DNA of 64,000 nucleotides from Providencia hangzhouensis (GTDB taxonomy: Bacteria; Pseudomonadota; Gammaproteobacteria; Enterobacterales; Enterobacteriaceae). Positions 32,105 through 58,953 of this stretch are shown here, in pieces. How positions within the stretch are numbered: the first letter of the stretch is position 1; each line of letters opens with the position of its first letter. A model generated the notes under the pieces. The model made no database searches. It saw only the letters and a program-made list of their open reading frames with translations, and was not told the DNA's origin. The DNA lies in NCBI RefSeq assembly GCF_029193595.2, contig NZ_CP135052.1, positions 3,782,001-3,846,000 on the forward strand, in the 5' to 3' direction. The translations under genes were made by a program, and so were the position numbers.

Positions 32105-32194
32105 TTTTCGCGGAAAAGCTTGTCACTGTTTAGGACATATACTCTTTCTCCAAAATAATTCACGTTGGAGCAAAGCGGCAAAGAAGATAATCCC

Positions 32195-32270: not shown

Positions 32271-32272
32271 AC

Positions 32273-32350: not shown

Positions 32351-32353
32351 AAA

Positions 32354-41130: not shown

Positions 41131-41721
41131 ATGCCTACATATAACATATTATTTTTGTTATTCTATACAAAGTCACGGAGGAAATTATAAAAATATAATA
41201 ATCATTCAGATAAAAAACTAAGCCATTTATTAAAAATATATTTAAAATATATTGAACTCGGTTGTTAATAATTAAATTAAAATCAGAAATAAGTATTTTT
41301 CTAACAATATATCTATATTAATACTCTACATATAAGTGTAACAAACAATGACTATAATCATATAATGACAAGCTGCTTCATTCATTTCTTCAAAATAACA
41401 AATAGAAATATAAATTCAAAAATAAAGTAAAAATAAATAACTATCAAAATAAATCACTAACAAAGCAAAAACAGACAAACAATAACACTAAAAAGCCTCT
41501 CATCACACACGAATTGAGAGTGCCAAAGATAGAAATCATCTATCAAAAATTTAAAATCAATCCGCCATAAATATTGGTAATAATTAACTGACCCTTGTTT
41601 AATAATATCCGAAAAGTCTGATAATTATCTTTTAATCACTCTGAGTGACACAAATTAAACATCACGAAACTTTAATAGAAAAATAACTTATTTGTTCAAT
41701 ATTTATATATTTGGAGGAGTA
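41131..41721. other. AT-rich gap between dcuA and the MrpJ-like gene
   Basis: About 590 bp, strongly A/T-rich, with no credible reading frame. In E. coli cutA and dsbD follow dcuA at this point; neither is present. The 3' part should hold the promoter of the regulator gene. Confidence 0.6.
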
Positions 41722-42015
41722 ATGCTAAATACTCAAAGAAATGAAAATACAAATGTAACCGTTTATATTGGAAGCTTTTTAAAACACCGTAGAAAAGTGG
41801 TGGGCTTAACTGGCTCACAATTAGCTTCTCGCTTAAAAATTAGCCAACAACAAGTTTCTCGTTATGAAAGAGGTAAAAATGCGATTACGATCCAAGGTCT
41901 TTTAGATATTTTACAAGCTCTCGAATTACGAACACATGATATTGATGATTTTATGAAAAAAGTCTTTCAGTTTTATTATATCGATGCTGCATTAGAAGCT
42001 AAGTTGATCAACTAA
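41722..42015 (+). CDS. MrpJ-like XRE-family regulator (orphan copy)
   Basis: A 97-residue protein with one Cro/C1-type HTH (FLKHRRKVVGLTGSQLASRL, KISQQQVSRYERGKNAITIQ). The SQQQVSRYERG helix is typical of MrpJ, which in Proteus mirabilis couples fimbrial expression to repression of motility. ATG at 41722 is chosen for ggagga at 41713-41718. There is no fimbrial operon beside it, so it is an orphan paralog of the copy at 54684. A G/C-rich hairpin follows (42046-42062). Confidence 0.82.
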   Translation: MLNTQRNENTNVTVYIGSFLKHRRKVVGLTGSQLASRLKISQQQVSRYERGKNAITIQGLLDILQALELRTHDIDDFMKKVFQFYYIDAALEAKLIN

Positions 42016-42881: not shown

Positions 42882-42917
42882 TTGACGCAAACGGCTGAAT
42901 ACGGTTTAATGCGCCCC
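42882..42917 (+). promoter_or_regulatory. tRNA-Phe promoter
   Basis: The -35 TTGACG (42882-42887) and -10 TTTAAT (42905-42910) are 17 bp apart. The GC-rich discriminator gcgcccc follows, the mark of stringently controlled stable-RNA promoters. Confidence 0.85.
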
Positions 42918-42920
42918 GTT

Positions 42921-42996
42921 GCCCGGATAGCTCAGTCGGTAGAGCAGGGGATTGAAAATCCCCGTGTCCTTGGTTCGATTCCGAGTCCGGGCACCA
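42921..42996 (+). tRNA. pheU: tRNA-Phe (anticodon GAA)
   Basis: A 76-nt cloverleaf with acceptor stem GCCCGGA / TCCGGGC, D-loop AGCTCAGTCGGTAGAGC, anticodon stem GGGGA-ttGAAaa-TCCCC, T-loop GGTTCGATTCC, and encoded CCA. From memory identical to E. coli tRNA-Phe. Its 3' end is the left attachment site of the sialic acid island. Confidence 0.98.
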
Positions 42997-43037
42997 CTTA
43001 TTTAAAGAACCCGCCCAAAAGGCGGGTTTTTGCTTTT
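42981..43037 (+). repeat. attL: tRNA-Phe 3' end plus terminator
   Basis: The last 16 bases of tRNA-Phe and the 41 bases after it, including the terminator AACCCGCC-caaaa-GGCGGGTT plus TTT (43008-43031), reappear at 53868-53925 with two substitutions and two compensating one-base indels. This left copy belongs to the intact tRNA gene. Confidence 0.88.
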
Positions 43038-43594
43038 CTAGCTACGGTAGATTTCAGGTCGTTGCAACACGTTATTTATTTACTGGATTTCATGCCATTT
43101 TTGCAGATGTTCTTTGCTGTTAAAGACACCTATACCCCCTCATAAACCTATCTCTTATTTTCTTGTGTAAGTATTCCATAAAAACAAATCATTAACTTTA
43201 ACAGATATGTCAATTTCAGCTTTTCATTCACACTAGGCTATCAGATTGAATTGTGTTCTATCTACGAAACCTGTCAGCTTAAATCTGAGCTGATACAGTC
43301 ATGCTACGCTTTAATGTGTCTGGCAGATATACATAAAATAATATGTGTAGCAATATGCTGCGCTATTTAATGAGTTTTATCCGAAATATGGAAAGAAACC
43401 CGGAGCGGTATATTCAACTATGTCGGGATGTTTTATAACAGTGTTAGCATGGCTTGCGTGTTCTTATATCACCAACGTAATATAAATATCAATATTATCA
43501 ATTAGTAACACATGTTTACATAGCTCGTATTAATTCAAAATTAAATTAAGACTAACCTTCAGGTAAGGAAAAAATATAGAGTTTAAAAAGATAA
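43038..43594. other. Gap between attL and the nanM promoter region
   Basis: No gene found. I searched both strands for integrase or transposase remnants and saw none. The longest starter-preceded frame is 31 residues (43343-43438), with no recognised similarity. Confidence 0.55.
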
Positions 43595-43610
43595 CTTGAC
43601 CATCTTCACA
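43595..43610 (+). promoter_or_regulatory. CRP-like site upstream of nanM
   Basis: CTTGA-ccatct-TCACA: the right half is perfect and the left half has 3 of 5 matches to TGTGA. It lies 19 bp upstream of the palindrome at 43629. Confidence 0.4.
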
Positions 43611-43628
43611 TTTTATAAAACATTAATT

Positions 43629-43643
43629 TGAAGTTATACTTCA
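43629..43643 (+). promoter_or_regulatory. Putative RpiR-regulator operator before nanM
   Basis: TGAAGTTATACTTCA, a near-perfect palindrome preceded by aacattaatt. The same block occurs before nanE (45817-45831), and a looser version before nanA. A degenerate second copy, TGGAGTTTAATTCTA, follows at 43659-43673. Confidence 0.65.
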
Positions 43644-43714
43644 TTTGATGTTTTATATTGGAGTTTAATTCTAAATAGAAATCTCACTTATAACCACTAC
43701 AAGAGTGAACGCGT

Positions 43715-44875
43715 ATGAAAATAATAAAGAAAATATCTTATCTCTTTTTCACCATAATACTGTCTTCACCAATATTCTCATCGACCAGTTTTGCTGAGAA
43801 ACTCCCCGCCCTTCCTGTGACATTAAAAAATGGAACCGGAGTAATTAACCAAAATATTATTTACATAGGTTTAGGTAGTACAGGAAACTCATGGTATAAA
43901 CTTGATCTTAATGAAAATAAAAAAAAATGGGAAAAAATAGCTGATTTTCCGGGTACGCCAAGAGACCAAGCTATAGCAATTAAGTTAAATAATAATATTT
44001 ATATATTCGGCGGAGCGGGAAAAGAAAATATTGATAGTGAAACAATAAGCTCATTAACAGATGTTTATCGTTATTCACCAAGTGAAGACAAATGGGAAAA
44101 AATAGATACTAGTTCACCTTATGGCTTGGTTGGTCATGCAGGAGTTAGTATCAGCACCAATAAAGCTATCATTCTTGGAGGAGTAAACAAGCAAATATTT
44201 GATAAATATTTCATTAATTTAAATAATGCTAAAAACAATTCATCTATTAAAAATAAAGTTATTAATGATTACTTTAATAAACCCATAGAAGGCTATTTTT
44301 TTAATCGAGTCATACTAACTTATAATGCAGATAATAATCAATGGGGTTCATTAGGCACTATTCCTTTTAATGGAACTGCGGGTTCTTCATTAGTAGTAAA
44401 TGATAACAATTCAATAACCTTGATTAACGGTGAATTAAAACCTGGGTTACGTACTAGTGAAATACAAACGGCTATATTAGAAAATAATCAACTACAGTGG
44501 AATACTACTGTACAGAAACTTCCTCCACCATCACCTGAGCAGCAGCAAGATGGCTTGGCTGGTGCATTTGCAGGTTATAGTGCTCATACCTTACTTGTTG
44601 CTGGGGGTGCTAACTTCCCTGGGTCTCAGGCTAAGTATTCACAGAAACATTATTTTGCACATCAGGATTTAGACAAAAAATGGCATAAAGAAATTTATGG
44701 GTTGATTGATAATCAATGGAAAGTAATTGGTGAATTACCGATCCCTCTTGGTTATGGAATCACTATTGAGCATGGTAATTCACTATATTTAATCGGAGGT
44801 GAAACTACAAAAGGTGAGGCAGTTAATTCTGTAATCACTTTAACATTAAAAGATAAAGAGCTAATTATTAACTAA
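43715..44875 (+). CDS. nanM: N-acetylneuraminate epimerase (mutarotase) NanM
   Basis: Periplasmic Kelch-repeat enzyme that speeds conversion of alpha- to beta-sialic acid after release from glycans. 386 residues with a signal peptide (MKIIKKISYLFFTIILSSPI, cleavage near SFA). Kelch blades are visible as IYIFGGAGKENI, AIILGGVNKQIF, LLVAGGANFPGSQAK and LYLIGGETTKG. The GANFPGSQAKYSQKHYF and FAGYSAHTLLVAGG segments match E. coli NanM from memory. It is followed by nanC; both would be controlled by the palindrome upstream. Confidence 0.93.
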   Translation: MKIIKKISYLFFTIILSSPIFSSTSFAEKLPALPVTLKNGTGVINQNIIYIGLGSTGNSWYKLDLNENKKKWEKIADFPGTPRDQAIAIKLNNNIYIFGGAGKENIDSETISSLTDVYRYSPSEDKWEKIDTSSPYGLVGHAGVSISTNKAIILGGVNKQIFDKYFINLNNAKNNSSIKNKVINDYFNKPIEGYFFNRVILTYNADNNQWGSLGTIPFNGTAGSSLVVNDNNSITLINGELKPGLRTSEIQTAILENNQLQWNTTVQKLPPPSPEQQQDGLAGAFAGYSAHTLLVAGGANFPGSQAKYSQKHYFAHQDLDKKWHKEIYGLIDNQWKVIGELPIPLGYGITIEHGNSLYLIGGETTKGEAVNSVITLTLKDKELIIN

Positions 44876-44912
44876 ACCAGTTAAATTTATAAATTATAAT
44901 AACCAACCAAGA

Positions 44913-44935
44913 ACTCCATATTAAATTTATGGAGT
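44913..44935 (+). terminator. Hairpin between nanM and nanC
   Basis: A perfect 8-bp stem ACTCCATA / TATGGAGT with a 7-nt loop, followed by cttatcc. No U-tract, so it is more likely a processing or attenuation hairpin than a full terminator. Confidence 0.45.
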
Positions 44936-44957
44936 CTTATCCACTCAGGTAAAAACT

Positions 44958-45647
44958 ATGTTTAATAATAAAATTTTATTGGCATGTTGTACTTTTTTTA
45001 TGTCATTTCAATTAAATGCGACTACACTAGACTTTCGTCATGAATATTCAGATTCATCCAGAATAAATAAAGATCGCATTGCCTTTATTCATTCATTTTC
45101 AAATGGTATCGGATTTTATATTGATGCCAGTATAAAGTCAGGTGGTGTTGACGGCGAAAAAGATAAAGTATTTAGTGATGTTGTTAATAATGCTATCGAA
45201 ATGGGGCTAAGTTACAACCATAAGATAAATAAAAGTATAACGTTACAACCGGGATTAATTTTTGAAACAGTTACAGACACATCAATTTATAAACCTTATT
45301 TAAAGGCGCAATATAATTTTGATAACGGTTTATATATTGCAGGCCGTTATCGTTTTGATTATGCCAGAAAAACAAAAAAAGCTGTTGATGACGAAAAAAC
45401 AAATCGCTTTGATGCGTTTATTGGCTATAAATATAATAAATACAAAATTGAATATGACTACACACAAATGTATAGCGATGGCATAAAATATGATAATAAG
45501 AAACGTAATTATGAACATAATGTCTCTTTCTCTTACCAATTGAGTGACACATTCACTCCTTATATTGAAGTTGGAAATGTTGCGGTAAGCCCGACCAGTG
45601 ACGCCCGTCAAACTAGGTATCGTTTAGGATTACAATTCCACTTTTAA
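44958..45647 (+). CDS. nanC: KdgM-family outer-membrane channel NanC
   Basis: A monomeric 12-stranded beta-barrel for diffusion of sialic acid and acidic oligosaccharides. The 229-residue precursor has a signal peptide ending QLNA, mature start TTLDFRHEYSDSSRINKDR (typical KdgM N-terminus), alternating amphipathic strands, and a terminal phenylalanine in RYRLGLQFHF, needed for barrel assembly. It is adjacent to nanM, as in E. coli nanCMS. Confidence 0.9.
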   Translation: MFNNKILLACCTFFMSFQLNATTLDFRHEYSDSSRINKDRIAFIHSFSNGIGFYIDASIKSGGVDGEKDKVFSDVVNNAIEMGLSYNHKINKSITLQPGLIFETVTDTSIYKPYLKAQYNFDNGLYIAGRYRFDYARKTKKAVDDEKTNRFDAFIGYKYNKYKIEYDYTQMYSDGIKYDNKKRNYEHNVSFSYQLSDTFTPYIEVGNVAVSPTSDARQTRYRLGLQFHF

Positions 45648-45674
45648 ATCTTATGTAAAAAGATGCCAAAAATT

Positions 45675-45714
45675 ATAGTGAGTAATTACTCCATTACTCA
45701 CTATATTATTTTTT
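45675..45714 (+). terminator. nanC terminator
   Basis: A perfect 12-bp stem ATAGTGAGTAAT / ATTACTCACTAT with a 6-nt loop, followed by attattttttc. Confidence 0.88.
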
Positions 45715-45750
45715 CATATTTATCAATAAATTAAGAAAAATATTTTATTA

Positions 45751-45766
45751 TTTGATCTTCTTCACA
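45751..45766 (+). promoter_or_regulatory. CRP-like site upstream of nanE
   Basis: TTTGA-tcttct-TCACA matches the CRP consensus at 9 of 10 core positions, about 100 bp before nanE. Confidence 0.55.
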
Positions 45767-45816
45767 AATTACGACTTTCGTAATTGAGGAATTTAGCTTC
45801 ATAAAATAACATTAAT

Positions 45817-45831
45817 TGGAGTTATACTTCA
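45817..45831 (+). promoter_or_regulatory. Putative RpiR-regulator operator before nanE
   Basis: TGGAGTTATACTTCA, preceded by aacattaat, differs from the nanM copy at one position. It lies 22 bp before the nanE ATG, where a bound repressor would block the promoter or early elongation. Confidence 0.65.
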
Positions 45832-45852
45832 AAATAAAATGGTGAGTTCAAA

Positions 45853-46551
45853 ATGGCATTGATTGAAAAGATGACTACGGATATTCAACAAAAAGGAGGG
45901 CTGATCGTTTCTTGCCAGCCTGTCGATAATAGCCCTATGGATAAGCCAGAAATTGTTGCTGCAATGGCTCAAGCTGCAGTTAATGCAGGTGCAGTAGCAG
46001 TACGAATTGAGGGAATAGATAATTTAAAAGCAACTCGCCCTCTTATTGATGTGCCAATTATTGGTATTGTCAAACGCGATTTACTGGATAGTCCTGTCAG
46101 GATCACACCTTGGTTAAGTGATGTAGAAGCACTAGCAACAGAAGGTGCCGATATTATCGCTTTTGATGGTACGGATCGTGTACGCCCAGTTCCAGTCAAT
46201 GAGTTATTGGCTTGCATACACCACTTCAATAGGTTGGCAATGGCAGATTGTTCCACATTTAATGAGGGAATGTATTGCCAGGAATTAGGAACAGAATTTA
46301 TTGGTTCAACTATGTCTGGCTATACCGGTGGTGAAATACCAAAATTACCTGATTTACAATTAGTGGCAGCACTCGCTGAAAATGGATGCCGTGTAATAGC
46401 CGAAGGCCGCTATAACACACCTATGATTGCAGCAAGAGCTATACAAGCTGGAGCTTGGGCTGTCACAGTTGGTTCCGCATTAACCCGACTTGAACATGTC
46501 TGTGATTGGTTTACCCATGCCCTCAAGTTACAGCAGGAATTAGTTAAATGA
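45853..46551 (+). CDS. nanE: N-acetylmannosamine-6-phosphate 2-epimerase NanE
   Basis: Converts ManNAc-6-P to GlcNAc-6-P, cytosolic. The 232-residue TIM barrel has [19 protein letters not shown] at the N-terminus, [41 protein letters not shown], and AEGRYNTP with [15 protein letters not shown] at the phosphate end. It overlaps nanK by 4 bp (ATGA), indicating coupling. First gene of nanE-nanK-siaT-nanQ. Confidence 0.95.
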
Positions 46552-47417
46552 ATGTATTAGCAATTGATATTGGAGGAACAAAGATTTCGGCTGCATTAAT
46601 CAGTCGAGACAATCAACTTACGCACCATACTCAAATTACAACCCCTGCAAGTGCATCACCAACTCAACTCTATGAAGCTTTGGTGGCGATAACTACACCA
46701 CTAAAAGCGTATGCAGATGGTGTCGCCGTAGCCTCTACAGGGATTATCTGTGATGGCGTATTAACTGCATTAAATCCTAATAATTTGGGAGGATTAAAAA
46801 ATTTCCCGTTAAAAAAAACACTTTCTACAATAACCGGTTTGCCTTGCTGGTTACTCAATGATGCTCAAGCTGCTGCATGGGCTGAATATGATTACCGCCA
46901 TGAAAATATCTCTGATATGGCATTTATTACAGTATCGACAGGGGTTGGGGGCGGCCTAATTCAACAAGGACAATTACAGCTAGGAAAACGAGGTATTGCA
47001 GGCCATCTAGGCCACACTATAGCTGATCCTCATGGCCCTCTTTGCGGCTGTGGTCGTTATGGATGTGTCGAAGCTATCGCTTCCGGCCGAGCCATTGCTT
47101 CACAAGCTGTAAATGAACTTGCAGGTAAAGATGCTAAAGCTATTTTTACTGCCTATTACCAGGGAAGCCTTCAAGCGAAAACAATAATTGAAAACTCAGC
47201 AAGTACTATAGCTAATTTAGTTGCTGATATTAAAGCAATAATAGATGCCGACTGTGTTGTTATTGGTGGAAGTGTTGGATTAGCAAATGGATATATCGAG
47301 CTTGTTCAAGCAGCTATCAGACAACAGCCCGAGGCGTTACAAGTCCCTATTTTAGCTGCTCACTATCATCATAATGCTGGACTTTGGGGAGCCGTTCTTT
47401 GGGCTAGGAAACACTAA
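46548..47417 (+). CDS. nanK: N-acetylmannosamine kinase NanK (ROK family)
   Basis: Phosphorylates ManNAc released by NanA. The 289-residue protein has the N-terminal ATP phosphate motif [14 protein letters not shown], the ROK region [14 protein letters not shown] with its catalytic Asp, and the zinc motif [20 protein letters not shown] followed by GCVEAIASG. Length matches E. coli NanK (291). It overlaps nanE and precedes siaT by 51 bp. Confidence 0.94.
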
Positions 47418-47468
47418 AAAACTGTCGTACTTCTTACCTTTTACCTTACATATGGCAGGACTAAAAAA

Positions 47469-48962
47469 ATGCAATTACATGATTTTGGTTTCGTTAATTA
47501 TGCAGTGCTATTTGGATATTTAGCCGCAATGTTACTCGTTGGTGTTTATTTCTCTAAACGCCAAAAAACAGCGGATGATTATTTTCGTGCCGGGGGGCGG
47601 GTTCCCGGTTGGGCTGCCGGTGTTTCTGTCTTTGCAACAACATTAAGCTCAATTACCTTTATGTCAATTCCAGCGAAAGCTTATACTTCTGATTGGACTT
47701 TTATTATTGGCCAATATTTAGCGATCGCCATTTTGCCATTAGTATTTTATTTCTATATTCCTTTCTTTAGAAAATTAAAAATTACTTCAGCCTATGAGTA
47801 TTTAGAAGCCCGTTTTGATATACGAAGTCGTTTATTTGCCAGCCTGTCATTTATGTTATTTCATATTGGTCGTATTGCAATTATCACTTATTTGACCGTA
47901 CTCGCACTACGTCCTTTCATAGGGATAGACCCTATTATATTAGTTGTACTGATTAGTCTATTATGTATTATTTATACATGGATGGGAGGGATTGAAGGCG
48001 TTATTTGGACAGATGTTATTCAGGGATTGTTACTTTCAGGTGGTGCTGTTTTAATCTTTATCATGATTTGTTTTAAAGTTGATGGAGGTATTAGTGAGAT
48101 TTTTACCACAACAGCACAGGCTGATAAATTTTTCCCGGATGCACAGTTACGCTGGAGTTGGACTGACAGTACTATTCCTGTATTAATGATTGGTTTTTTA
48201 TTTGCCAATATTCAACAATTTACTGCAAGCCAAGATGTTGTCCAGCGCTACATTGTGACTGATTCTATCGAACAAACTAAACGTACTTTAATCACAAATG
48301 CTAAATTAGTTGCCATTATTCCTATTTTCTTTTTTGCCATTGGTTCAGCCCTATTTGTGTATTACAAACAAAATCCAAGTTTGTTACCTGAAGGTTTTAA
48401 TACCGGAGGTATCTTACCCTTATTTATTGTTACAGAAATGCCAGTGGGTATTTCTGGGCTGATCATTGCAGCTATCTTTGCCGCTGCTCAATCGAGCATA
48501 TCTAGTAGCTTAAATAGTATTTCTAGTTGCTTTAATTCTGATATCTATATTCGCTTAAGTAAAGTTGAACGGCGTTCAGAACAAAAAATGAAAGTCGCCA
48601 GATTAGTTATAATTATTGCTGGAGTATTCAGCAGTTTAGCAACAATTTGGCTAGTTTTATCTGACGAGTCTGAAATATGGGATGCTTTTAACAGTTTAAT
48701 CGGTTTAATGGGTGGCCCTATGACCGGACTATTTATGTTAGGTATTTTTGTTAAACGTGCTAATGCAGGTAGTGCGGTCGCAGGCATTATAGTAAGTATC
48801 ATTGCTGTATTAGCAGCCCGTTATGGCAGTGACCTTAACTTTTTCTTCTATGGTGTAATAGGTGCTATGTCAGTAGTCATTATTGGTACAATTACTGCGC
48901 CATTTTTCTCGGCAGCAAAACAAATTTCATTGGATGATAGTGAAATATCAAGGAACTCATAG
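47469..48962 (+). CDS. siaT: Sodium:sialic acid symporter SiaT (SSS family)
   Basis: Inner-membrane Na+-coupled importer of N-acetylneuraminate. The 497-residue protein is nearly colinear with Proteus mirabilis SiaT as I recall it. Ligand residues reported for that protein are all present at the same numbers: Thr58, Ser60, Thr63, Gln82 and Arg135 for sialic acid, and Asp182, Ser342, Ser343, Ser345 and Ser346 in the sodium sites. There are about 13 helices. This SSS type differs from the E. coli MFS-type NanT. A weak aggac lies upstream of the ATG. Confidence 0.95.
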   Translation: MQLHDFGFVNYAVLFGYLAAMLLVGVYFSKRQKTADDYFRAGGRVPGWAAGVSVFATTLSSITFMSIPAKAYTSDWTFIIGQYLAIAILPLVFYFYIPFFRKLKITSAYEYLEARFDIRSRLFASLSFMLFHIGRIAIITYLTVLALRPFIGIDPIILVVLISLLCIIYTWMGGIEGVIWTDVIQGLLLSGGAVLIFIMICFKVDGGISEIFTTTAQADKFFPDAQLRWSWTDSTIPVLMIGFLFANIQQFTASQDVVQRYIVTDSIEQTKRTLITNAKLVAIIPIFFFAIGSALFVYYKQNPSLLPEGFNTGGILPLFIVTEMPVGISGLIIAAIFAAAQSSISSSLNSISSCFNSDIYIRLSKVERRSEQKMKVARLVIIIAGVFSSLATIWLVLSDESEIWDAFNSLIGLMGGPMTGLFMLGIFVKRANAGSAVAGIIVSIIAVLAARYGSDLNFFFYGVIGAMSVVIIGTITAPFFSAAKQISLDDSEISRNS

Positions 48963-49445
<483 letters not shown>

Positions 49446-49463
49446 TTTTCATCAGTTCCAATT

Positions 49464-49526
49464 AAACGCTTTATTTCTAATGCATCAATAAATTGTATAT
49501 TGATGCAAATGGAATAAAGCGTTTTG
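49464..49526 (+). terminator. Nested hairpin terminator after nanQ
   Basis: The outer stem AAACGCTTTATT (49464-49475) / AATAAAGCGTTT (49513-49524) encloses a second perfect stem TGCATCAATA / TATTGATGCA (49481-49507). The tail is tgttattat. The two-tier stem is unusual. Confidence 0.75.
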
Positions 49527-49635
49527 TTATTATCACATAATTATAAGAGCAAGGCTTTTTTTAACCCGCCAGAATTGATACTCTTGTTAGCAGAATTCCA
49601 TTCCCTTTGAACTTCGGCAAACAAGGATAATTTTC

Positions 49636-50523
49636 ATGACAAAACAGTCAGTTACCAGACTGAAGCCAGGTAAAATACTCGATACACTAGGGGCAATGAA
49701 AAATAGCCTGACGCGAGTATCACAGCGTATTGCTGAATATATCCTGTTTCATCCTGTTGAAGTCACTCAGCTTTCCATCGCACAACTTTCCCAAGCGACT
49801 AAGGCGGGTGAGGCAACTGTAGTGCGTTTTTGCCGCACTTTAGGCTATAAGGGCTTTCAAGACTTTAAAATGGATTTAGCCATTGAAATGGCGACATCGG
49901 ATAGTGAAGAATCACCAATCCTTGATGCTGAAGTTAGCCATCAGGATGATATCCATACTATAGGTTTAAAATTACAAGCAACCATCAATAATGTGTTATC
50001 AGAAACATTAAATTTACTTGATATGACGCAAGTTCAAGATGCTGTAAATGCGTTGCTATCATCGAATTATGTTTTTATCTGCGGTGTGGGTTCCTCAGGG
50101 ATCACAGCAGAGGATCTAAAAAATAAACTGATGCGTATTGGATATCGAGTGGATGCTGTTACCAATAACCATTTTATGTATATGCAGGCTTCCTTATTGA
50201 AACCGGGTGATATCGCGATTGGTATCAGCCATTCCGGAAACTCACCGGAAACAGTTCATGCACTGAAACTTGCAAAAGAAGCAGGGGCTACCACAATTGC
50301 GCTAACGCATAATTTAGGTTCACACATTATGGAATATGCCAATTATTATCTGATTAATGGTAATCGACAGGGGAAATTACAAGGTGATTCTATTGGTACA
50401 AAAACAGCACAACTGTTCGTTTTAGACTTACTATATACCCTACTTGTCCAAGCTCAACCTGAAATGGTCAAAGAGCAAAAACTGCGTACACTAAATGCAT
50501 TAAAAAATACCAATTCAGCATGA
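49636..50523 (+). CDS. MurR/RpiR-family regulator, probable sialic acid regulator
   Basis: A 295-residue regulator: N-terminal HTH_6 domain (SLTRVSQRIAEYILFHPVEV, LSQATKAGEATVVRFCRTLG) and C-terminal SIS sugar-phosphate-binding domain (VFICGVGSSGITAEDLKNKL, IGISHSGNSPETVHALKLAK). RpiR-type NanR proteins in Vibrio and other bacteria sense ManNAc-6-P and repress nan genes; E. coli NanR is instead GntR-type. aagga precedes the ATG. Its position between nanQ and nanA and the shared palindromes make it the probable repressor of this island. Confidence 0.88.
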   Translation: MTKQSVTRLKPGKILDTLGAMKNSLTRVSQRIAEYILFHPVEVTQLSIAQLSQATKAGEATVVRFCRTLGYKGFQDFKMDLAIEMATSDSEESPILDAEVSHQDDIHTIGLKLQATINNVLSETLNLLDMTQVQDAVNALLSSNYVFICGVGSSGITAEDLKNKLMRIGYRVDAVTNNHFMYMQASLLKPGDIAIGISHSGNSPETVHALKLAKEAGATTIALTHNLGSHIMEYANYYLINGNRQGKLQGDSIGTKTAQLFVLDLLYTLLVQAQPEMVKEQKLRTLNALKNTNSA

Positions 50524-50639
50524 GTTTATAATCAGTGTTATGTGGTCTTGAACAAAAACCAGCTAAAGATCACACTTTCATTTTTCTCTTTCTTTAACGC
50601 TAATTTCATTATTGCGTTCTGAACGATTGAGCCTTAATA

Positions 50640-50654
50640 TAGAGTAAAACTCCA
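50640..50654 (+). promoter_or_regulatory. Putative RpiR-regulator operator before nanA
   Basis: TAGAGTAAAACTCCA matches the nanE operator at 11 of 15 positions, and its half-sites GAGT/ACTC are intact. It lies 43 bp before the nanA ATG. A right-half CRP motif (atcaca) lies about 70 bp upstream. Confidence 0.55.
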
Positions 50655-50697
50655 TATTATAATAAATAAAGAAATCAACCTCCAAAAAGGAATGATA

Positions 50698-51588
50698 ATG
50701 AAAAAACTCTCTGGATTAATCGCTGCACCTCATACACCTTTTGCTGCCGATGGCAGTATTAATTACCCTGTCATTGATAAAATTGCAGAACATCTTATTG
50801 CAAGTGGTGTCACTGGTGCTTACGTATTAGGAACAACAGGAGAAGGTATCCATTGTTCTGTCGAAGAACGCAAAAAAGTCGCTGAATGCTGGGCTGCTGC
50901 CAGTCAAGGACAACTAGATATCATTGTTCATACAGGTGCACTCAGTATTGCAGACACTATAGAGCTATCCCGTCATGCTGAAACGTTAGATATTCAAGCT
51001 ACATCAGTAATTGGTCCTTGTTTCTTTAAACCAAGCAATGTAGATGACTTAGTTGAATATTGTCGTTTAGCAGCGATGAATTCGCCTTCTAAAGGCTTTT
51101 ATTACTACCACTCTACTATGTCAGGTCTAAACATTGACATGGAAAAATTTTTACAAGCGGCAGGAAAAACAATTCCGAATTTATCCGGAATGAAATTTAA
51201 TTCTCCTGATATGTATGAATTTCAACGTTGTTTACGTGTTGATGGCGGTAAATACGACATTCCATTTGGTGTAGATGAATTTATACCGGCAGGGTTAGCT
51301 TGTGGGGCGTTAAGCGCTGTAGGAAGCACCTATAACTATGCGGCTCCTTTATATCTTGAAATAATTGAGAAATTTAACACTGGTGATTACGATGGTATCG
51401 CTGCATGTATGGATAAAGTAATTGCAATTATTCGTGTGCTGGTAGAATACGGTGGTGTTGCTGCAGGTAAAGTTGCAATGCAATTACATGGTATTGATGT
51501 TGGTGACCCCCGCCGTCCACTACGCCCATTAACTGCAGCACAAAAAACGGATGCATTAGCAAAATTTAAAGCGGCCGGTTTTCTATAA
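50698..51588 (+). CDS. nanA: N-acetylneuraminate lyase NanA
   Basis: Class I aldolase that splits Neu5Ac into ManNAc and pyruvate. The start at 50698 is preferred to 50692, as aaagg is then 7 bp upstream; 296 residues. The DHDPS-family motifs are LGTTGEGIHCSVEERKKVAE, the catalytic tyrosine in FYYYHSTMSG, and the Schiff-base lysine in LSGMKFNSPDMY. Features such as GPCFFKP, FGVDEF and GAVGSTYNY-like GALSAVGSTYNYAAP, place it nearer to the Vibrio/vertebrate NPL subgroup than to E. coli NanA, by my reading. Confidence 0.92.
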   Translation: MKKLSGLIAAPHTPFAADGSINYPVIDKIAEHLIASGVTGAYVLGTTGEGIHCSVEERKKVAECWAAASQGQLDIIVHTGALSIADTIELSRHAETLDIQATSVIGPCFFKPSNVDDLVEYCRLAAMNSPSKGFYYYHSTMSGLNIDMEKFLQAAGKTIPNLSGMKFNSPDMYEFQRCLRVDGGKYDIPFGVDEFIPAGLACGALSAVGSTYNYAAPLYLEIIEKFNTGDYDGIAACMDKVIAIIRVLVEYGGVAAGKVAMQLHGIDVGDPRRPLRPLTAAQKTDALAKFKAAGFL

Positions 51589-51658
51589 TTAACTTTACTC
51601 TTGCTGAGTATTAACAACACAAGCTTGTTTTTTTACATCTCCCCCATTTGATGATGAC

Positions 51659-51693
51659 AGTGGCCTTCGAAGTGAAAGCCACTCTTTATTTCT
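51659..51693 (+). terminator. Probable nanA terminator
   Basis: The stem AGTGGC / GCCACT has a 13-nt loop and is followed by ctttatttctt. It lies 70 bp after the nanA stop. Confidence 0.55.
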
Positions 51694-51804
51694 TAAAATA
51701 TTCCCCCAATCAGTTATCCGATTAAGCTGAATAACATCATGTGTAAAATCAAAAAAAGAATATATTGTCACCTATATAAGCAAATCATTTTTTATTACAG
51801 ATAA

Positions 51805-52482
51805 TTATATTTTACTACACTTGATTTTTTTATTTTTAGCAGTGAATAATGCAACCGCCCCCTGAATATTAACAGAAACATCTTCAAACAAAGAAGCAAG
51901 TGTCGTTTCAAGTGAATCCGCAGAGTCATAAACATTGCTAAAAATTCCTTTTTTATTATAGACTGACATTAGCTTACTTCCAAAACGATTATGCTTAACC
52001 CCCTTTCCAAGAATAGTCGCACCATATAAAGTGCCATCATCCTTAAGTGTTTCACTGATATTTATTATCGCTTGTTTCTTATCACTCATTTTCCCTGGCA
52101 AGCAATGTAATAAATAAAATATGGATACTGAATCAAATGCCCCTCTCAACTCACCAGTAAATCTGTTAAAAATATCATGACAGAAACAAGAGTTTAATTT
52201 CTCATCATAAATATATTTTTTAGCATATTCTAAACTGTGAATATTAAGATCGGAAAGTGATATTTTATTAATTTCATCTGCAGCTTTTTTTAAATAAAAA
52301 CCAGTCCCAACACCAATATCCATATGGTTGTTACCAAGATGAGATTTAAAGTGAGGAATTAAAAATTCATCAGTATTACAACGCCATGCATAGTTATTAG
52401 ATATATTTAGTACCCACCAGTCATATAGAGCCAAAGAGAGAGGTGTATATACTTTAGAACCATCATTTGTGTTCAATGACAT
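51805..52482 (-). CDS. Class I SAM-dependent methyltransferase of unknown substrate
   Basis: A 225-residue protein with the Rossmann SAM-binding motif MDIGVGTGFYLKKAADEI (about residues 54-71), a ribose-binding acidic residue in SLSDLNIHSLEYAKK, and SVSIFYLLHCLPGK near motif IV. It resembles small-molecule methyltransferases of the methyltransferase-12/25 group. It stands alone, convergent to nanA and AT-rich, inside the tRNA-Phe island. I cannot connect it with sialic acid. Substrate unknown. Confidence 0.8.
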   Translation of the reverse strand: MSLNTNDGSKVYTPLSLALYDWWVLNISNNYAWRCNTDEFLIPHFKSHLGNNHMDIGVGTGFYLKKAADEINKISLSDLNIHSLEYAKKYIYDEKLNSCFCHDIFNRFTGELRGAFDSVSIFYLLHCLPGKMSDKKQAIINISETLKDDGTLYGATILGKGVKHNRFGSKLMSVYNKKGIFSNVYDSADSLETTLASLFEDVSVNIQGAVALFTAKNKKIKCSKI

Positions 52483-52976
52483 AAAATCTCCATAATGGAA
52501 AAAATATATATTATTTTTTTATTATTTATTTTAATAGTCGAAAATAATGAGTGATAAGTCAGGTTATCATATGCTATAAGTGTAGGATTATATACTTGGT
52601 ATTATTCAGAGTTATTTATATCACATCCCATCTTTAATCGGAAAAAACTCTGACAATTTCACACATGCGCCATTAAAATCATCTAAAGATATATCTCCAT
52701 CTATTCACCCCATTCACACCATAGCCTAACAAAACAAATCAAAAAACTAATAAATATGCATATCATCTTTGGTATGCTTCATCTGTGATAACCATAAACC
52801 ATATGCCTTTCTAAATAATTTATCAGAAACCATTTACACAGATACTGGATAAAACCCACAAGGTCATGAAATACAAAATAACGAAATTTAATCATAACGA
52901 TTAAAGCGAACATAATTCACGCAAGTAAATTAACAAGTTATATTTTTATTGTCAGTTTACCTCTTTCGAGGTATTT
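52483..52976. other. AT-rich gap within the island
   Basis: About 490 bp with no credible gene or clear repeat on either strand. Confidence 0.6.
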
Positions 52977-53493
52977 TCATTGAGCTAATGCTGTGTGGAA
53001 AATCATCTGCATCTCCCTTTCCTGAAGAGCGGGTATAATAGTCACCCTGAAAGTTTTTTTGAAAAACCGCATTGCCCATCCATCCGGAATATCAAGCGAC
53101 ATGATCTTGTTATCAAAATTATATGTACTAAAATCATCAATACTTTCATTTACCAGCAAATACTGACCTGTTTGATCAAATCCATTAAATAATACAATGG
53201 CAGAGAACCTCTGGTGACAACTATCTCCATTACTCAGTGTCACAGTTGCTGTAATCTTTTGGTGTACAAAAATACTCTTACTGCCCTCTTTATTTTGACA
53301 AGATTGACTGGCATTGAATTGTGCTTGTATTTTTTACATCAACACTGGCATACATCTCGTTAAATGGGGTTAATACACGCCCGATTATCAGGGTAAGAGT
53401 ACATAGAGGAATTCACCGTCACGTGAATATTATCAGCTATTGCAACCAAAGGTAGTCCTATCAATAAAAACAAACCTATAACTCGTTTTTTCA
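52977..53493 (-). pseudogene. Secreted protein gene with two frameshifts
   Basis: Minus strand from 53493: signal peptide MKKRVIGLFLLIGLPLVAIA, then DNIHVTVNSSMYSYPDNRAC and INPI before a stop. One frame over it continues PFNEMYASVDVKNTSTIQ, then in the third frame SQSCQNKEGSKSIFVHQKIT, ATVTLSNGDSCHQRFSAIVL and on to HTALAQ. Joining the three gives a plausible secreted protein of about 170 residues with four cysteines. The family is not recognised. Two indels make it non-functional unless recoded. Confidence 0.7.
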
Positions 53494-53548
53494 TATTAAA
53501 TTCCAAATCTATTTTCACCTCTGCGGATCAAGGGGACCTGTATCTGGG

Positions 53549-53718
53549 CTATACCGAATCAGATGTCTTCCCCATATGCTTTACAGCTTTCAATTGATCA
53601 TCATTCTGAATTAATCTGCCCTTTTTCAGATAGTTAATTTTTCAGCCATCAATTGTGCTTCATCTTCGCTGTGAGTCACTAACAGTGCTGTTTGCCTGAG
53701 AGGGTAGATTTCATAGAC
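53549..53718 (-). pseudogene. ABC transporter ATPase, C-terminal remnant
   Basis: Minus-strand text VYEIYPLRQTALLVTHSEDE, AQLMAEKLTI, then after a one-base shift LKKGRLIQNDDQLKAVKHMG KTSDSV and stop. ALLVTHSEDEA is the switch-histidine region of ABC ATPases and KKGRLIQ the usual following strand. No Walker motifs remain. It is decayed DNA near the right island end. Confidence 0.5.
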
Positions 53719-53867
53719 CACCCCACCCGAGCTGAATTATTTACCGTGGTGGGGTGTCAGCTCAGAACATGGCAATCAATGTAGAAAAAAGGGGCATATT
53801 ATGGGTCTTGACAAAAAGATAAAATAGATTTACTTTGAAAATCAATTCATTAAATAGCTGAATGTTC

Positions 53868-53925
53868 CCGAGTCTGGGCACCACATATTTAAAGAACCCG
53901 CCCCAAAAGGCGGTTTTTTGCTTTT
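53868..53925 (+). repeat. attR: copy of the tRNA-Phe 3' end plus terminator
   Basis: ccgagtctgggcaccac followed by atatttaaagaacccgcc and an imperfect terminator stem. It matches 42981-43037 with two substitutions and two one-base indels. Upstream of 53866 the rest of the tRNA is absent, so this is a displaced att copy and not a second tRNA gene. Confidence 0.88.
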
Positions 53926-54683
53926 ATATTTCTAAGCTCAAGTTGAGTACTCGGCTAAAGAATCTGAAATCTATAATCTTTTTTTTATCTAACCTAAACA
54001 CTTATTTCTATACCCTTTCAGTCTACTAGACATGGTTAGTCCGCCACTATACAGAATATTGATATACAATCAGCTATAATATAAAGTCAATTAACTTGAC
54101 TTATACCAAATAACCAGGAATTACCTAAAAAAAACCAAACACTAAAGTTTATAATTAGATTATTATTCTCACCCTTTTCTCATTTCATCCATTAGACAGC
54201 CAAGCTTAACTCATATTACGTGTTTTTATTAGCCTATTGTCTTATCTAAGAACCTAAAAATAAGTTTTTATATTAATAGTTATGAAAATAAATCATTAAA
54301 AAACCACAATATCATTTTTTATTCCTAGCTATTGAGCTAAAAAAATAATCAAATACAATATTAATCAATAAGTGCTAATAATAATTTGTAATAAAAAGGT
54401 AACTAAGCCTTAATGTAATAAAACCTACTCAACCTTACCGAACAACTCACAATTTCTGCTTAACATGTTGTTAAGTAATAAAAATAACCCCATAAAACAA
54501 AGTGCAAATAACTATAATGTTTAGAATAAGACTCTGCATATGAACCTAAAATAAATGACTTAATCTTATTTAAAACTTTCAATTAAGGAATACCTTATAT
54601 TCTAAAATTTTCTTTTCGTCATAATTTACTCTTAGCTATAAAAATAGTTTTATGAATCAATGATACTAGGGTCAAGTTTCCTC
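53926..54683. other. AT-rich gap right of the island
   Basis: About 750 bp, very A/T-rich, with no gene on either strand. It should contain the promoter of the MrpJ-like gene at 54684. Long AT-rich stretches like this before fimbrial regulators commonly bind H-NS, but no site can be proved here. Confidence 0.55.
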
Positions 54684-55025
54684 ATGAAAAAGAAAAAAGA
54701 TACAACTTATTATATCAGCCAACTAGTTGGTAAATGCTTACAAGAATACCGGCAAGAATTAGGAATTAGTGGTGAGAACATTGCGAAAGAGTTAGGCATT
54801 AGCCAACAGCAATTATCGCGCTATGAACGAGGGGAGAATGCGTTAACCGTAGATGTATTGTTTAAATTTATTCTTATACTCGGTATTAATTTCCCAGATT
54901 TTTACCATAGGCTATTCTATGTCGTGAGTCATCATCCTAAACTTTCACACTATATCACTAATTTAAATGGTTTTGGCTGGGAATTAGATGATTTGAAAGA
55001 CTACTATAATTCAGCAATTGTATAA
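54684..55025 (+). CDS. MrpJ-like XRE-family fimbrial regulator
   Basis: A 113-residue protein with a Cro/C1-type HTH: VGKCLQEYRQELGISGENIA, KELGISQQQLSRYERGENAL. It is a paralog of the protein at 41722; the SQQQxSRYERG recognition helix is shared. MrpJ homologs repress flagellar genes when fimbriae are made. The start at 54684 is favoured by alignment; an in-frame ATG at 54660 has no better ribosome site. It lies directly before the hybrid kinase gene and 9 kb from a fimbrial operon. Confidence 0.82.
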   Translation: MKKKKDTTYYISQLVGKCLQEYRQELGISGENIAKELGISQQQLSRYERGENALTVDVLFKFILILGINFPDFYHRLFYVVSHHPKLSHYITNLNGFGWELDDLKDYYNSAIV

Positions 55026-55115
55026 CCTTTAGCGTAAAGAAATATTGTTTAATTTGTTTATTTTATATTATTATGAAAATCATGGAGTTTGCCTATAATC
55101 GATGAGAACAGCGCT

Positions 55116-58100
55116 ATGCCTACCCCTTCTCCGACTGCATTTTCAAGGATAACTCGCACATCAGGACGCACGAATAGCATACTTACCATTGCTTTTCCTT
55201 TGTTATTTATTCTAATAACAACATTGATTTGGAGTGCAGAGCGAATTGTTCAACAAGAAACTAAACGCCTAGAAGTCGATTTTAGGTCACTAATAGGCTA
55301 TATCAATGAACAAGAAAAGTTTTTACGATCTTTAAATAAGCAAAATCAAGATTTAATAGAGTTAGTTGAAAGCCGAACCTATGCAATACAAGAACAGTTC
55401 TTACCAACAAGGTCGCCATTATATCTACTCGAAGGTAAAGAATCTTTAGTTGCAATGCCATTTACCCTAGCTTGTGACAAGAGTTTAGAGTGTTCCAACG
55501 TTCCCAGTATATTATTTTCTTTAGGGGCCTATTTAGCTGATTACTATTCTACTTTTTGGGGAGGCTCATATTTTCCAGCTGCTGCAGTATTTTTTGTCAA
55601 CGAACACGACCAAATTAGTATCAGCGTTCCTTCCGTTGGAACAGTTTTAGGAAATGAATCTATTTCTCCAAATTTGTATTACTCCGTCATTGATAGTATT
55701 AGAAAAAATTTACCTACTATTCATGCTCAATTTTTAGAATCACAAGAAAGCGATTCAAAAGACATTATCTGGTTACGTCCTGAGCCATTTGATCATATTC
55801 TCATTGGGATCATCCCTGCTGGTTTTGATGAACATTTATGGCAGAATGCTCACATTTCTCCTAAAAATATTTATGCAGTTAGTATGTTAAGCCAAGCAAG
55901 GCTTAGCGTGCTGGAGCGAATGTTAAACCCCACACTCACACATCAATTTTGGCTGATTCATGCAAAATATGGTCAGCTACTTGGAACAACCCAAGCACCT
56001 GAAGAAGAAGCATTAGAAGGTATTTTCTATACCAGAGATGGCCTAGTTCTTAAACTTTCATCTAAAACTGATGAATGGACTGGATATTATAGAATTAGTT
56101 ATGCGGCTTTTTTTGAAGACAACCTGTGGCTTCCTATCAGTTTAGTTATTGCACTTTTCTTTAGTTTATTTTGTGGATGGGGATATCACCGCTGGTACCA
56201 ACGAAAAATATTACAACCCGCAATAGACTCCCAGCAAGCTATCTTAGAAAATGAATCTTTTAACCAAACACTTATTGCGACAACCCCTATCGGCTTATGT
56301 GTAATAGATAAAGAAACCCAGCAGTTACGCTTTGCGAATGAGTTAGCTCGTTATTGGCTAAAAATAACCAATATATCTACTCCCCACGACTCAAATGAAT
56401 ATAATGAATTACTTATCAAGGTTCTTTCTGACACAGAACAGGTTAAAACTAATTTAAAGTCTGGGGAACATGTTCTTTATGTCGTAAGCACAGCAACTTA
56501 TTACCAGCAGCGCCCTGTTATTTTATGCGCATTTACTGATATTACGATCCAAGCAGAAACTGAAAAACAACTTGATGATGCTAAGCGACTTGCAGAAGAA
56601 GCCAACCGAGCTAAATCCACATTTTTAGCAACAATGAGCCATGAAATACGAACCCCACTTTATGGTCTAATAGGTACATTAGAATTACTGGCAAATACCT
56701 CTCTTTCATCTCAACAAGCTCACTTTATTGATCGAATATCAACAACATCCCAATTACTTATGCAGTTAATTGGTGATATTTTAGATATTAGCAAAATAGA
56801 AGCTAATCAAATTCAAATTCATAATCAACCATTTGATTTATTAGAATTAGTGCAACAAACTGTTCAGTTATATCAAGGAATTGCTCAGCAAAAAGGGTTG
56901 CTCCTATTTGCTATTATTGACCCAAATGTACAAGCAAATAGAGTTGGTGACTCTGCCCGACTGCAACAAATTTTAGGTAATTTACTCAGTAATGCGATTA
57001 AATTTACCCACAGAGGTACTGTTACTATTGAACTTAAAAGAAGTAATAAAAATAATATATTACTACGTGTCAGTGATACAGGTGTTGGAATTAGCCCTGA
57101 ACAACAAATAAAATTATTTGAGCCATTTTATCAAGCTCATTCAGAAATTCATGCTTATGGTGGTACTGGCTTAGGTCTATTTATTTGCTCTAAGCTTATC
57201 AAATTGATGGATGGGCAAATAAGTTTACAAAGCGAAACTGGAGTTGGTAGCTCGTTTCTCGTGACACTACCTTTAGCACTCGATATACAGCAAACACACT
57301 GGCTATCACTCAAAAACACCAATATTTGGTTGCAAACCCCAAACCCATTATTGACTGAAAATATAACGCAATGGCTAAAACGTTGGGGGGCCAATGTATA
57401 TTTCACAGAAAATAGCCTCCCCATAGATACCTCATCCGTTATTGCCGTCGGCATCTTAATTCCATCGTTTCCTCTGCCAACTAATTGGGATGGGCAACTA
57501 TGGGTAAGCACTGAAATGAATTTCAGACTATCCGAGTTAAATCAGCAGTTATTCTTACTACAAAATAATAAAGAACCGATCCCCCTTATTTGTCCAACAT
57601 CTCGTATACAAACTCATATGCATAAATACCCGCTTCGCGTTTTAATTGCTGAAGATAACCCCATTAACCAAGTTGTTCTACAAGAGCAACTTGAACTACT
57701 TGGTTGTAAGGTATTTATTGCCAATGATGGTGAAGAAGCGTTGGTGATCTGGGATAACGAAATTGTTGATATCATCCTTACAGACGTTAATATGCCTTAT
57801 CGTAATGGTTATGAGCTTGCACAGCAGCTGCGCAGTGAAGGCGAAACATGCCCGATTGTTGGTGTTACTGCTAATGGATTAAAAGAAGAAGAAGAGCGAT
57901 GCCTAGAATCTGGAATGGATTCATGGCTTGTAAAACCTATAGAGCTAGAAACCTTAGTTCAATTGTTCAACCGTTTATTCCCGATTTACTCCTCCTCAGC
58001 TTCAGAAATGGGGCCAATAAAAGTGATTAACCCGCTAAATGGGGAAGATAGAGAAAAAATTATTCGTCATTTTGTGAGCGATATTACTCAATTTTGCCAA

Positions 58101-58322
58101 GCGGTTGAAAATAACAACACAGAAGAATTAAAACAGTTATCCCATCGTATCCGTGGTGCATTAATTAGTGTTGAACAACGTGAGTTAGCTAATCAGCTTC
58201 GTGAGTTTGAAACAGCATTAGATTCACGGACATCAACATACATTGATACCCAGATTAGTCAGAATATCTGCAACCAATTAGCTAATTGGATAAAAAAAAT
58301 TAGTCAAACAAATGATGTGTGA
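55116..58322 (+). CDS. Hybrid sensor histidine kinase (HisKA-HATPase-REC-HPt)
   Basis: A 1068-residue membrane phosphorelay kinase. Numbering from ATG 55116: helix 1 about residues 18-40, a large periplasmic region to about 335, helix 2 (LPISLVIALFFSLFCGWGYH), a PAS-like domain (about 380-480), HisKA with His509 in TMSHEIRTP, HATPase with NLLSNAIKF, DTGVGISPEQ and GGTGLGLFI, REC with Asp890 in ILTDVNMPY, and HPt with His1010 in SHRIRG. The layout is that of EvgS/BvgS/ArcB-type kinases. A TTG at 55089 is a possible alternative start. The signal is unknown; the convergent response regulator is the obvious partner. Confidence 0.9.
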   Translation: MPTPSPTAFSRITRTSGRTNSILTIAFPLLFILITTLIWSAERIVQQETKRLEVDFRSLIGYINEQEKFLRSLNKQNQDLIELVESRTYAIQEQFLPTRSPLYLLEGKESLVAMPFTLACDKSLECSNVPSILFSLGAYLADYYSTFWGGSYFPAAAVFFVNEHDQISISVPSVGTVLGNESISPNLYYSVIDSIRKNLPTIHAQFLESQESDSKDIIWLRPEPFDHILIGIIPAGFDEHLWQNAHISPKNIYAVSMLSQARLSVLERMLNPTLTHQFWLIHAKYGQLLGTTQAPEEEALEGIFYTRDGLVLKLSSKTDEWTGYYRISYAAFFEDNLWLPISLVIALFFSLFCGWGYHRWYQRKILQPAIDSQQAILENESFNQTLIATTPIGLCVIDKETQQLRFANELARYWLKITNISTPHDSNEYNELLIKVLSDTEQVKTNLKSGEHVLYVVSTATYYQQRPVILCAFTDITIQAETEKQLDDAKRLAEEANRAKSTFLATMSHEIRTPLYGLIGTLELLANTSLSSQQAHFIDRISTTSQLLMQLIGDILDISKIEANQIQIHNQPFDLLELVQQTVQLYQGIAQQKGLLLFAIIDPNVQANRVGDSARLQQILGNLLSNAIKFTHRGTVTIELKRSNKNNILLRVSDTGVGISPEQQIKLFEPFYQAHSEIHAYGGTGLGLFICSKLIKLMDGQISLQSETGVGSSFLVTLPLALDIQQTHWLSLKNTNIWLQTPNPLLTENITQWLKRWGANVYFTENSLPIDTSSVIAVGILIPSFPLPTNWDGQLWVSTEMNFRLSELNQQLFLLQNNKEPIPLICPTSRIQTHMHKYPLRVLIAEDNPINQVVLQEQLELLGCKVFIANDGEEALVIWDNEIVDIILTDVNMPYRNGYELAQQLRSEGETCPIVGVTANGLKEEEERCLESGMDSWLVKPIELETLVQLFNRLFPIYSSSASEMGPIKVINPLNGEDREKIIRHFVSDITQFCQAVENNNTEELKQLSHRIRGALISVEQRELANQLREFETALDSRTSTYIDTQISQNICNQLANWIKKISQTNDV

Positions 58323-58953
58323 GGCAATAACTGATTAACGCTTGATTATTATCAACACCCAATTTACGCATTGCAGCATTTTTCTGTAGGCTGATAGTTT
58401 TATCACTGCGGTTTAATTGCTTAGCAATATCAACAATAGGCTTACCTTGAACAAAAAGGCGCAGTACCTCAAGTTCACGAGGTGATAATGTCTTTACCCT
58501 ATCATTTAATGTTACTGCATTACGGCTTTTTAATGTCGTTGTCATATCTGCAACAGGAACACGATATTGGCGACCTTGCCCCGCTAATGTGATAGCTTTC
58601 ATCAGGTCACCTAATGGTGCCTCTTTTGACACCACCGCACTCACCCCAGAATCATATAACATTTGTACAATCATTGGGTTAGATACCATCGTTAATACAA
58701 TCACTGCAATATTTGGATATTGACGACGTAAAAATTGAATATAATTCTGTCCATCGCTAGATTGGGTATTATTAGGCATCATATAATCAGTTACGATCAC
58801 ATCAACCTCATTTTTTTTCAAAAAAGCAAATAGTTCAGCATCCTGAGTGTAAGCACCTAAAATGTCTAAATTCATTGATTGAGAAAGTGTATCTTTCAAA
58901 CCTGAAAGCACAATGGGATGATCATCAACTAATACTAATTTGAGTTTTTTCAT
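58300..58953 (-). CDS. LuxR/NarL-family response regulator, RcsB-like
   Basis: A 217-residue regulator: REC domain with acidic pocket VDDHP and phosphoacceptor Asp56 in VTDYMMP, Lys in VSKEAP, and a C-terminal LuxR-type HTH (LSPRELEVLRLFVQGKPIVD, IAKQLNRSDKTISLQKNAAM RKLGV). Its overall look, including NRSDKTISLQKNAAMRKLGV, is close to RcsB. It faces the hybrid kinase gene and its stop codon lies inside that gene's end, overlapping by 23 bp. Probable final acceptor of the kinase phosphorelay, and a likely regulator of the neighbouring fimbriae. Confidence 0.9.
   Translation of the reverse strand: MKKLKLVLVDDHPIVLSGLKDTLSQSMNLDILGAYTQDAELFAFLKKNEVDVIVTDYMMPNNTQSSDGQNYIQFLRRQYPNIAVIVLTMVSNPMIVQMLYDSGVSAVVSKEAPLGDLMKAITLAGQGRQYRVPVADMTTTLKSRNAVTLNDRVKTLSPRELEVLRLFVQGKPIVDIAKQLNRSDKTISLQKNAAMRKLGVDNNQALISYCLTHHLFD

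Follow-up and report, generated by a model that had tools for sequence, protein, structure and literature searches.

How did a complete set of sialic acid (nan) genes come to lie beside a tRNA-Phe gene in Providencia hangzhouensis, and did it arrive there as one discrete island? The window that we analyzed is a 64-kb stretch of the chromosome (contig NZ_CP135052.1, positions 3,782,001 to 3,846,000), and its genome is G000 in our comparison of 24 Providencia genomes.

A direct repeat of the tRNA-Phe 3' end bounds the segment

The only tRNA in the window is an intact tRNA-Phe (GAA) at 42921–42996 (+), which forms the left boundary of the segment. The original prediction that the 3' end of this tRNA and its terminator recur ~10.9 kb downstream was confirmed: the left copy (42981–43031, +; tRNA 3' end and native terminator) and the stretch at 53868–53918 form a 51-nt repeat with an ungapped identity of 88% and a spacing of 10,887 nt, and a gapped alignment of the same repeat covers 58 nt at 93% identity, reaching 53925. 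The tRNA contributes only its last 16 bases to the repeat, the remainder being terminator, and the right copy (53868–53925, +) is attR-like, with an eroded tRNA 3' end followed by the terminator. A tRNA boundary with a direct repeat at the opposite end, as sought in an island, is therefore present.

The terminator of the left copy is identical over 61–62 bases to those of genomes G010 and G015, and the 120 bases from 42916 to 43035 match the other tRNA-Phe locus of G000 at 100% identity. On the right side of the insert, homology to G011, a genome of a sister species, begins exactly at 53868, and the DNA to the left of this position is unrelated; the repeat copy is therefore not a chance match, and we rejected that explanation. 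From 53868 the homology continues to the end of the fetched sequence, covering an MrpJ-like gene and a hybrid kinase gene that in G011 is interrupted by a stop. Compared with the right copy of the window, those of G011 and G020 are one G shorter (GTCCGGCACC), and by eye the right copies of the window and G011 share no derived change. Given these differences, the two right copies may stem from separate insertions at one target.

Two small HTH regulator genes, at 41692–42015 and 54660–55025, frame the region, each with an AT-rich stretch upstream; both would be MrpJ-like, and a profile scan covered the second. At 55089–58953, a hybrid histidine kinase gene (55089–58322) and a LuxR-type response regulator gene lie beside MrpJ-like and fimbrial genes. 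This kinase/MrpJ block follows the same tRNA-Phe in G000, in G011 (90% DNA identity) and in G007 (~72%). Relatives of the kinase with 50% identity or more are likewise listed in G003, G014, G016 and G018, the last lying ~500 bp from the other tRNA-Phe copy of its genome, and none is listed for the remaining 17 of the 24 genomes.

The enclosed genes form a complete nan set

The eight nan genes between the repeat copies are real and all intact, and their families agree with the complete set that had been predicted. All are on the plus strand. The genes for the N-acetylneuraminate epimerase NanM (43715–44875), NanE (45853–46551), NanK (46548–47417) and the N-acetylneuraminate anomerase NanQ (48972–49445) score above their NCBIfam cut-offs, and Pfam profiles identify a nanC-type porin gene of the KdgM family (44958–45647), siaT (47469–48962) for a predicted Na+/sialic acid symporter (SSS), a gene for an RpiR-type regulator (49636–50523) and nanA (50692–51588) for a sialate lyase of the DHDPS family. 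Against the curated nanA models the lyase falls short of the cut-offs (147 vs 281 bits and 115 vs 382 bits), and it is 90% identical to the P. mirabilis lyase. The nearest solved structures are 5nv9 for the siaT product and 6h4e for the nanA product, both of which we take to be from P. mirabilis. In SiaT, all 16 ligand and Na+ positions checked are equal to those of P. mirabilis SiaT (PMI2976, PDB 5nv9), the five at 56, 60, 63, 135 and 339 included. The other 11 position numbers come from the paper that describes the solved structure of P. mirabilis SiaT and its rescue of an E. coli nanT mutant (PMC5931594). Between nanQ and the rpiR gene, at 49464–49524, there is a 27-nt inverted repeat that is partly conserved in Proteus and in P. 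rettgeri RB151 (genome G005, NZ_CP017671).

From these families, the porin would admit sialic acid, NanM and NanQ would set its anomer, SiaT would import it with Na+, NanA would cut it into ManNAc and pyruvate, and NanK and NanE would yield GlcNAc-6-P, which the genome's own NagA and NagB would finish. The nagB gene, followed by a frame that we named nagA-like from its sequence, is located elsewhere in the genome, so that on paper no step to fructose-6-phosphate is missing. No sialidase was found among the segment ORFs scanned.

Candidate operators lie upstream of nanM (43630–43642, +) and nanE (45818–45830, +), and these are the only two exact matches in 64 kb to the motif, GRAGTTNNAMYTC. Since the motif was read from an alignment and then searched, its two exact hits carry no independent weight; allowing one mismatch gives 12 hits, a number compatible with chance (7 of 100 shuffles give 12 or more). 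By eye, both sites are off by one base in Proteus species. A CRP-like site with one mismatch lies upstream of nanE (45751–45766, +), at the same place in RB151 and the aligned Proteus species, and the one at nanM is weak in the window, with three mismatches by eye, and is absent from the scan hits. A sigma-70 promoter scan gave no excess (43 hits vs a mean of 51 in shuffles). Control of the nanM and nanE promoters would fall to the RpiR-type protein, and CRP would act at least at nanE. Because the candidate operators are nearly conserved in Proteus and a CRP-like site precedes nanE, the promoter regions appear to have arrived together with the nan genes.

The cassette is of the Proteus type

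The nan genes lie within an 8.1-kb cassette (43570–51690, +) that is colinear with the Proteus nan locus at 78–79% DNA identity, including the intergenic regions. The same order, nanM-nanC-nanE-nanK-siaT-nanQ-rpiR-nanA, occurs in five of the eight Proteus species read; the other three loci (P. mirabilis, P. hauseri and P. faecis) lack nanM, as does RB151 at its nan locus, and P. faecis has kept a partial match over the nanC region. Both gene order and colinear DNA thus identify a Proteus-type nan/SiaT cluster. The original prediction had singled out an SSS-type SiaT in place of NanT: the transporter is indeed there, and it is no novelty, being the known Proteus arrangement. The Proteus stretches fetched, extending ~5.6–10 kb to either side of nan, contain no tRNA. 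For P. mirabilis NanA, a 2009 paper (PMC2693436) reports a placement within Vibrionaceae and deduces a transfer.

Among the 24 Providencia genomes, siaT orthologs are found in two, G000 (100%) and RB151 (96%), and the other listed matches have at most 30% identity. The gene is absent from G040, which belongs to the species of the window, so that its presence among close relatives is patchy, as in an island. The nan genes of RB151 are at a different locus from those of G000 and lack nanC in addition to nanM. A scan of GTDB r220, which may omit the window's own or very near records, returned 73 loci, with one in Providencia (RB151), eight in Proteus and further ones in Edwardsiella, Buttiauxella, Salmonella, Photobacterium and others. 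Among plasmid records, 65 matched the query; two P. mirabilis records of 4.1 Mb, which are chromosome-sized, covered 88% of it, and the others were partial. SiaT matches occurred in 35 phage records, one of them, an unannotated record of 2.2 kb, with 80% identity across 65% of the protein and 34 below 60%, and a search for NanM relatives in IMG/VR gave 16 stretches that matched a pattern, none of which encodes a relative.

The nan DNA of G000 is 81.5% identical to that of RB151 and 78–80% identical to that of Proteus. The corresponding core values are 89% (aspA-dcuA) and 85–89% (second segment) for RB151, and 79% and 75–77% for Proteus. Proteins of five nan genes are 90.6% identical between G000 and RB151 and 88.9–90.8% between G000 and Proteus, and AspA and DcuA together give 98.1% and 88.0–89.3%, respectively. 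Fourfold sites give 46.8% for RB151 vs 39.6–44.7% for Proteus in nan and 63.4% vs 50.9–52.5% in the core, a gap that is smaller and has the same direction. Within the second core segment, the stretch at 32145–32351 of the window (2147–2353 of the segment) matches dozens of sites in Providencia genomes and some in those of Proteus, and is a dispersed intergenic repeat.

Since the nan genes of G000 and RB151 have diverged more than the core genes, the two copies probably parted before their species did, and they probably represent two separate acquisitions, perhaps from a shared donor pool. Trees join the nan genes of G000 and RB151 (support 100/100 for DNA and 100/99 for protein) and reject a grouping of G000 with Proteus alone (p-AU 0.003 and 0.005). 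On this basis the likeliest donor would be an unsampled Morganellaceae lineage near Proteus, and direct transfer from a sampled Proteus is unsupported. As the trees join the two copies, it stays conceivable that nan entered the genus only once, long ago, and that losses and rearrangement came afterwards.

tRNA-Phe is an integrase hotspot in Providencia

Each of the 24 Providencia genomes has two tRNA-Phe loci. At 11 of these 48 loci, an Arm-DNA-bind integrase gene or fragment lies at most 310 bp from the matched stretch, with five at 195 bp, and three additional isolated copies of the tRNA-Phe 3' end also have an integrase gene or fragment. Judged from this sequence survey, tRNA-Phe is a genus-wide integrase hotspot; in G000, no integrase lies near either tRNA-Phe locus. 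At the yjdC locus, a second copy of the tRNA 3' end is found at 10.9 kb in G000, 32.7 kb in G011, 12.8 kb in G001 and 92.6 kb in G009, with a possible one on another contig in G020. In the remaining 19 of the 24 genomes no second copy was observed there, and in none is the MrpJ flank directly at the tRNA. The original prediction named two things that would speak against it, the same gene order with both repeats in all Morganellaceae and att-like repeats elsewhere without nan. The order proved not to be genus-wide in the 24 genomes, and the copies found elsewhere are copies of the tRNA-Phe 3' end, some of them beside an integrase, as expected of a hotspot.

In G011, a ~33-kb element with ArdA and a tyrosine integrase, which is split into two parts in different frames, lies between tRNA-Phe and the same right junction as in the window. 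In G040, 226 bp of the left end of an element of this integrase family are left at this tRNA-Phe, followed by a deletion into a backbone aldehyde dehydrogenase gene; because the deletion starts within the element, G040 was ruled out as an empty site. The elements with an integrase at 195 bp have their own sequence directly after CCA, and a native-like terminator is kept in some other elements, namely in G008, where a broken integrase follows immediately, and, by eye, in G007 and G018. An attP with a terminator is therefore possible for the window as well.

Soon after the same tRNA-Phe, genomes G010, G012, G006 and G005 have genes for an AbgT transporter, a pyruvate-formate-lyase-like glycyl radical enzyme and an aldehyde dehydrogenase (L062:1409–16184; families scanned in G010 only). 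This stretch, most of which is lost in G040, appears to resemble a microcompartment operon.

The flanks of the cassette are mosaic and carry no integrase

The DNA matching the Proteus nan locus is confined to 43570–51690, and the flanks at 43037–43570 and 51690–53867 are unrelated and contain relics. On the left, 43390–43501 (+) is a possible relic, with 71% identity over ~112 nt to G010 DNA overlapping the end of a frame that we named an IS3-type transposase. On the right, all on the minus strand, are a SAM methyltransferase gene (51805–52482) with a 72% DNA match in G016, a decayed gene (52977–53480) whose longest open piece has no Pfam match and whose start looks by eye like a signal peptide, and a relic that we named by eye as an ABC-transporter ATPase gene (53604–53697), with homologous open frames in G004 and G014.

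As the original prediction stated, no integrase is visible: the segment has no match to PF00589 or PF13356, the nearest being 196 kb away, no integrase remnant was found in it, and the nine segment ORFs scanned include no mobility gene. With no integrase, the segment could be an island only in a decayed state. A remnant of a G011-type element was sought in the segment by tblastn of neighbouring proteins and by blastn with word size 7, and none was found. The single blastn match, 76 nt at 43228–43302 with 75% identity, lies inside the second-locus element of G007; it also occurs in G040, G004 and G020, at positions where no such element is known, and we therefore took it for a dispersed repeat. 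Kinship of the window ends with those of the compared elements (four right ends and nine left stretches) was rejected; the lone low shuffle count, 4 of 300 for the right end of G020, came with a score of 25 vs 78 for the true kin G011 and G020.

Origin of the segment

With moderate confidence, we interpret the Proteus-order nan cassette as cargo of a one-time tRNA-Phe integrase island that no longer has its integrase and left end. In this scenario, insertion of the island by an integrase at the 3' end of the tRNA would have pushed the native 3' end rightward to 53868; the cassette, derived from a Proteus-like bacterium of the Morganellaceae, would have come with the island or joined it later; and the integrase and left end would then have been lost or remodelled. 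We regard the segment as a mosaic island that has decayed, given the native terminator on the left, the unlike ends, the relics outside the cassette and the missing uninserted junction. That the right flank of the 53868 copy also follows a different, integrase-bearing element in G011 favors an island, whereas the native terminator of the left copy, unlike the 195-bp integrase elements, argues against one. So does the absence of the exact tRNA-terminator-MrpJ junction without insert from all 24 genomes; the empty yjdC-tRNA-Phe-MrpJ site that was to prove insertion was not found, and the MrpJ/kinase flank is itself a variable block (G000, G011 and G007). The left terminator would also suit a history in two layers, in which nothing but the right att copy remains of an older tRNA-Phe island, and nan came later by homologous recombination or with insertion sequences rather than as integrase cargo. 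The mosaic flanks with relics beside the cassette, and cassette boundaries (43570 and 51690) that do not coincide with the repeat, point the same way, but on inspection and in the general repeat scan we noticed no clear trace of a later insertion (an intact IS, for example) at either boundary, and the relic matches are short, so that we consider this course of events possible but rather doubtful.

A discrete island devoted entirely to nan and inserted once between tRNA-Phe and the MrpJ gene would explain the direct repeat, the tRNA boundary and the patchy distribution. This version is unlikely in view of the unrelated DNA inside the repeat (2.2 kb containing relics at the right end and 0.5 kb at the left end) and of ends unlike those of the compared elements; with these features and the native terminator on the left, the original prediction of a gain in one step is not supported as stated. 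Its other elements are supported: a foreign origin, a tRNA-Phe boundary, a genuine second copy, the lack of an integrase and a patchy distribution. We think it very improbable that nan is ancestral to Proteus and Providencia, was lost in most Providencia and was moved by rearrangement, with the repeat as an unrelated relic. Although G000 and RB151 form a clade beside Proteus, and the divergence of nan from Proteus resembles that of the core, the difference between G000 and RB151 is much larger in nan than in the core, the two carry nan at different sites, and 22 of the 24 genomes have no siaT. Returning to the decayed island, we offer a tentative and rather speculative extension: the cassette could be a portable Morganellaceae unit with its own promoters, operators and regulator that entered Providencia at least twice at different sites, and at tRNA-Phe it would be integrase-less cargo, still movable in trans by the tRNA-Phe integrases of other elements.

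Comparison with known systems

Among the papers listed in literature searches on Providencia with sialic acid, nanA and tRNA-Phe or integrase islands and on the Proteus nan cluster (10 of 131 and 10 of 53 for the last two topics), no title concerned a Providencia sialic-acid island, and the words 'sialic', 'nanA' and 'tRNA' are absent from the main text of a Providencia comparative-genomics paper (PMC7652902). From the present comparison, sialic-acid genes emerge as a trait that varies within Providencia and tRNA-Phe as a landing site used across the genus, providing strain-level markers for a host-glycan niche.

tRNA-Phe is likewise an island site in E. coli, at the pheV tRNA (PMC11537424). 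The E. coli pheU gene adjoins yjdC. VPI-2, which sits at a tRNA-Ser site, likewise has nan genes on a chromosomal island. According to one paper (PMC2693436), VPI-2 encodes an integrase and the neuraminidase nanH, whereas the segment has no integrase and its ORFs scanned include no neuraminidase. The elements ICEPm1, ICEPm2 and ICEPm3 of Proteus mirabilis, a species of a sister genus, according to their description (PMC11278526), likewise use both tRNA-Phe genes and leave direct repeats. Those repeats are 52 bp long (for ICEPm2, 51 bp inside the tRNA), whereas the repeat of the window has 16 bp of tRNA and is otherwise terminator; and ICEPm2 is an 88-kb ICE with integrase, relaxase and T4SS, whereas no mobility gene occurs among the segment ORFs scanned. 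With a repeat that is mostly terminator and no integrase or other mobility gene among the ORFs scanned between its copies, the segment is not an ICEPm1-like ICE. The locus is likely a decayed tRNA-Phe island with a Proteus-type nan cassette; as such it joins known kinds and is a further case of a well-known pattern rather than a new mechanism.
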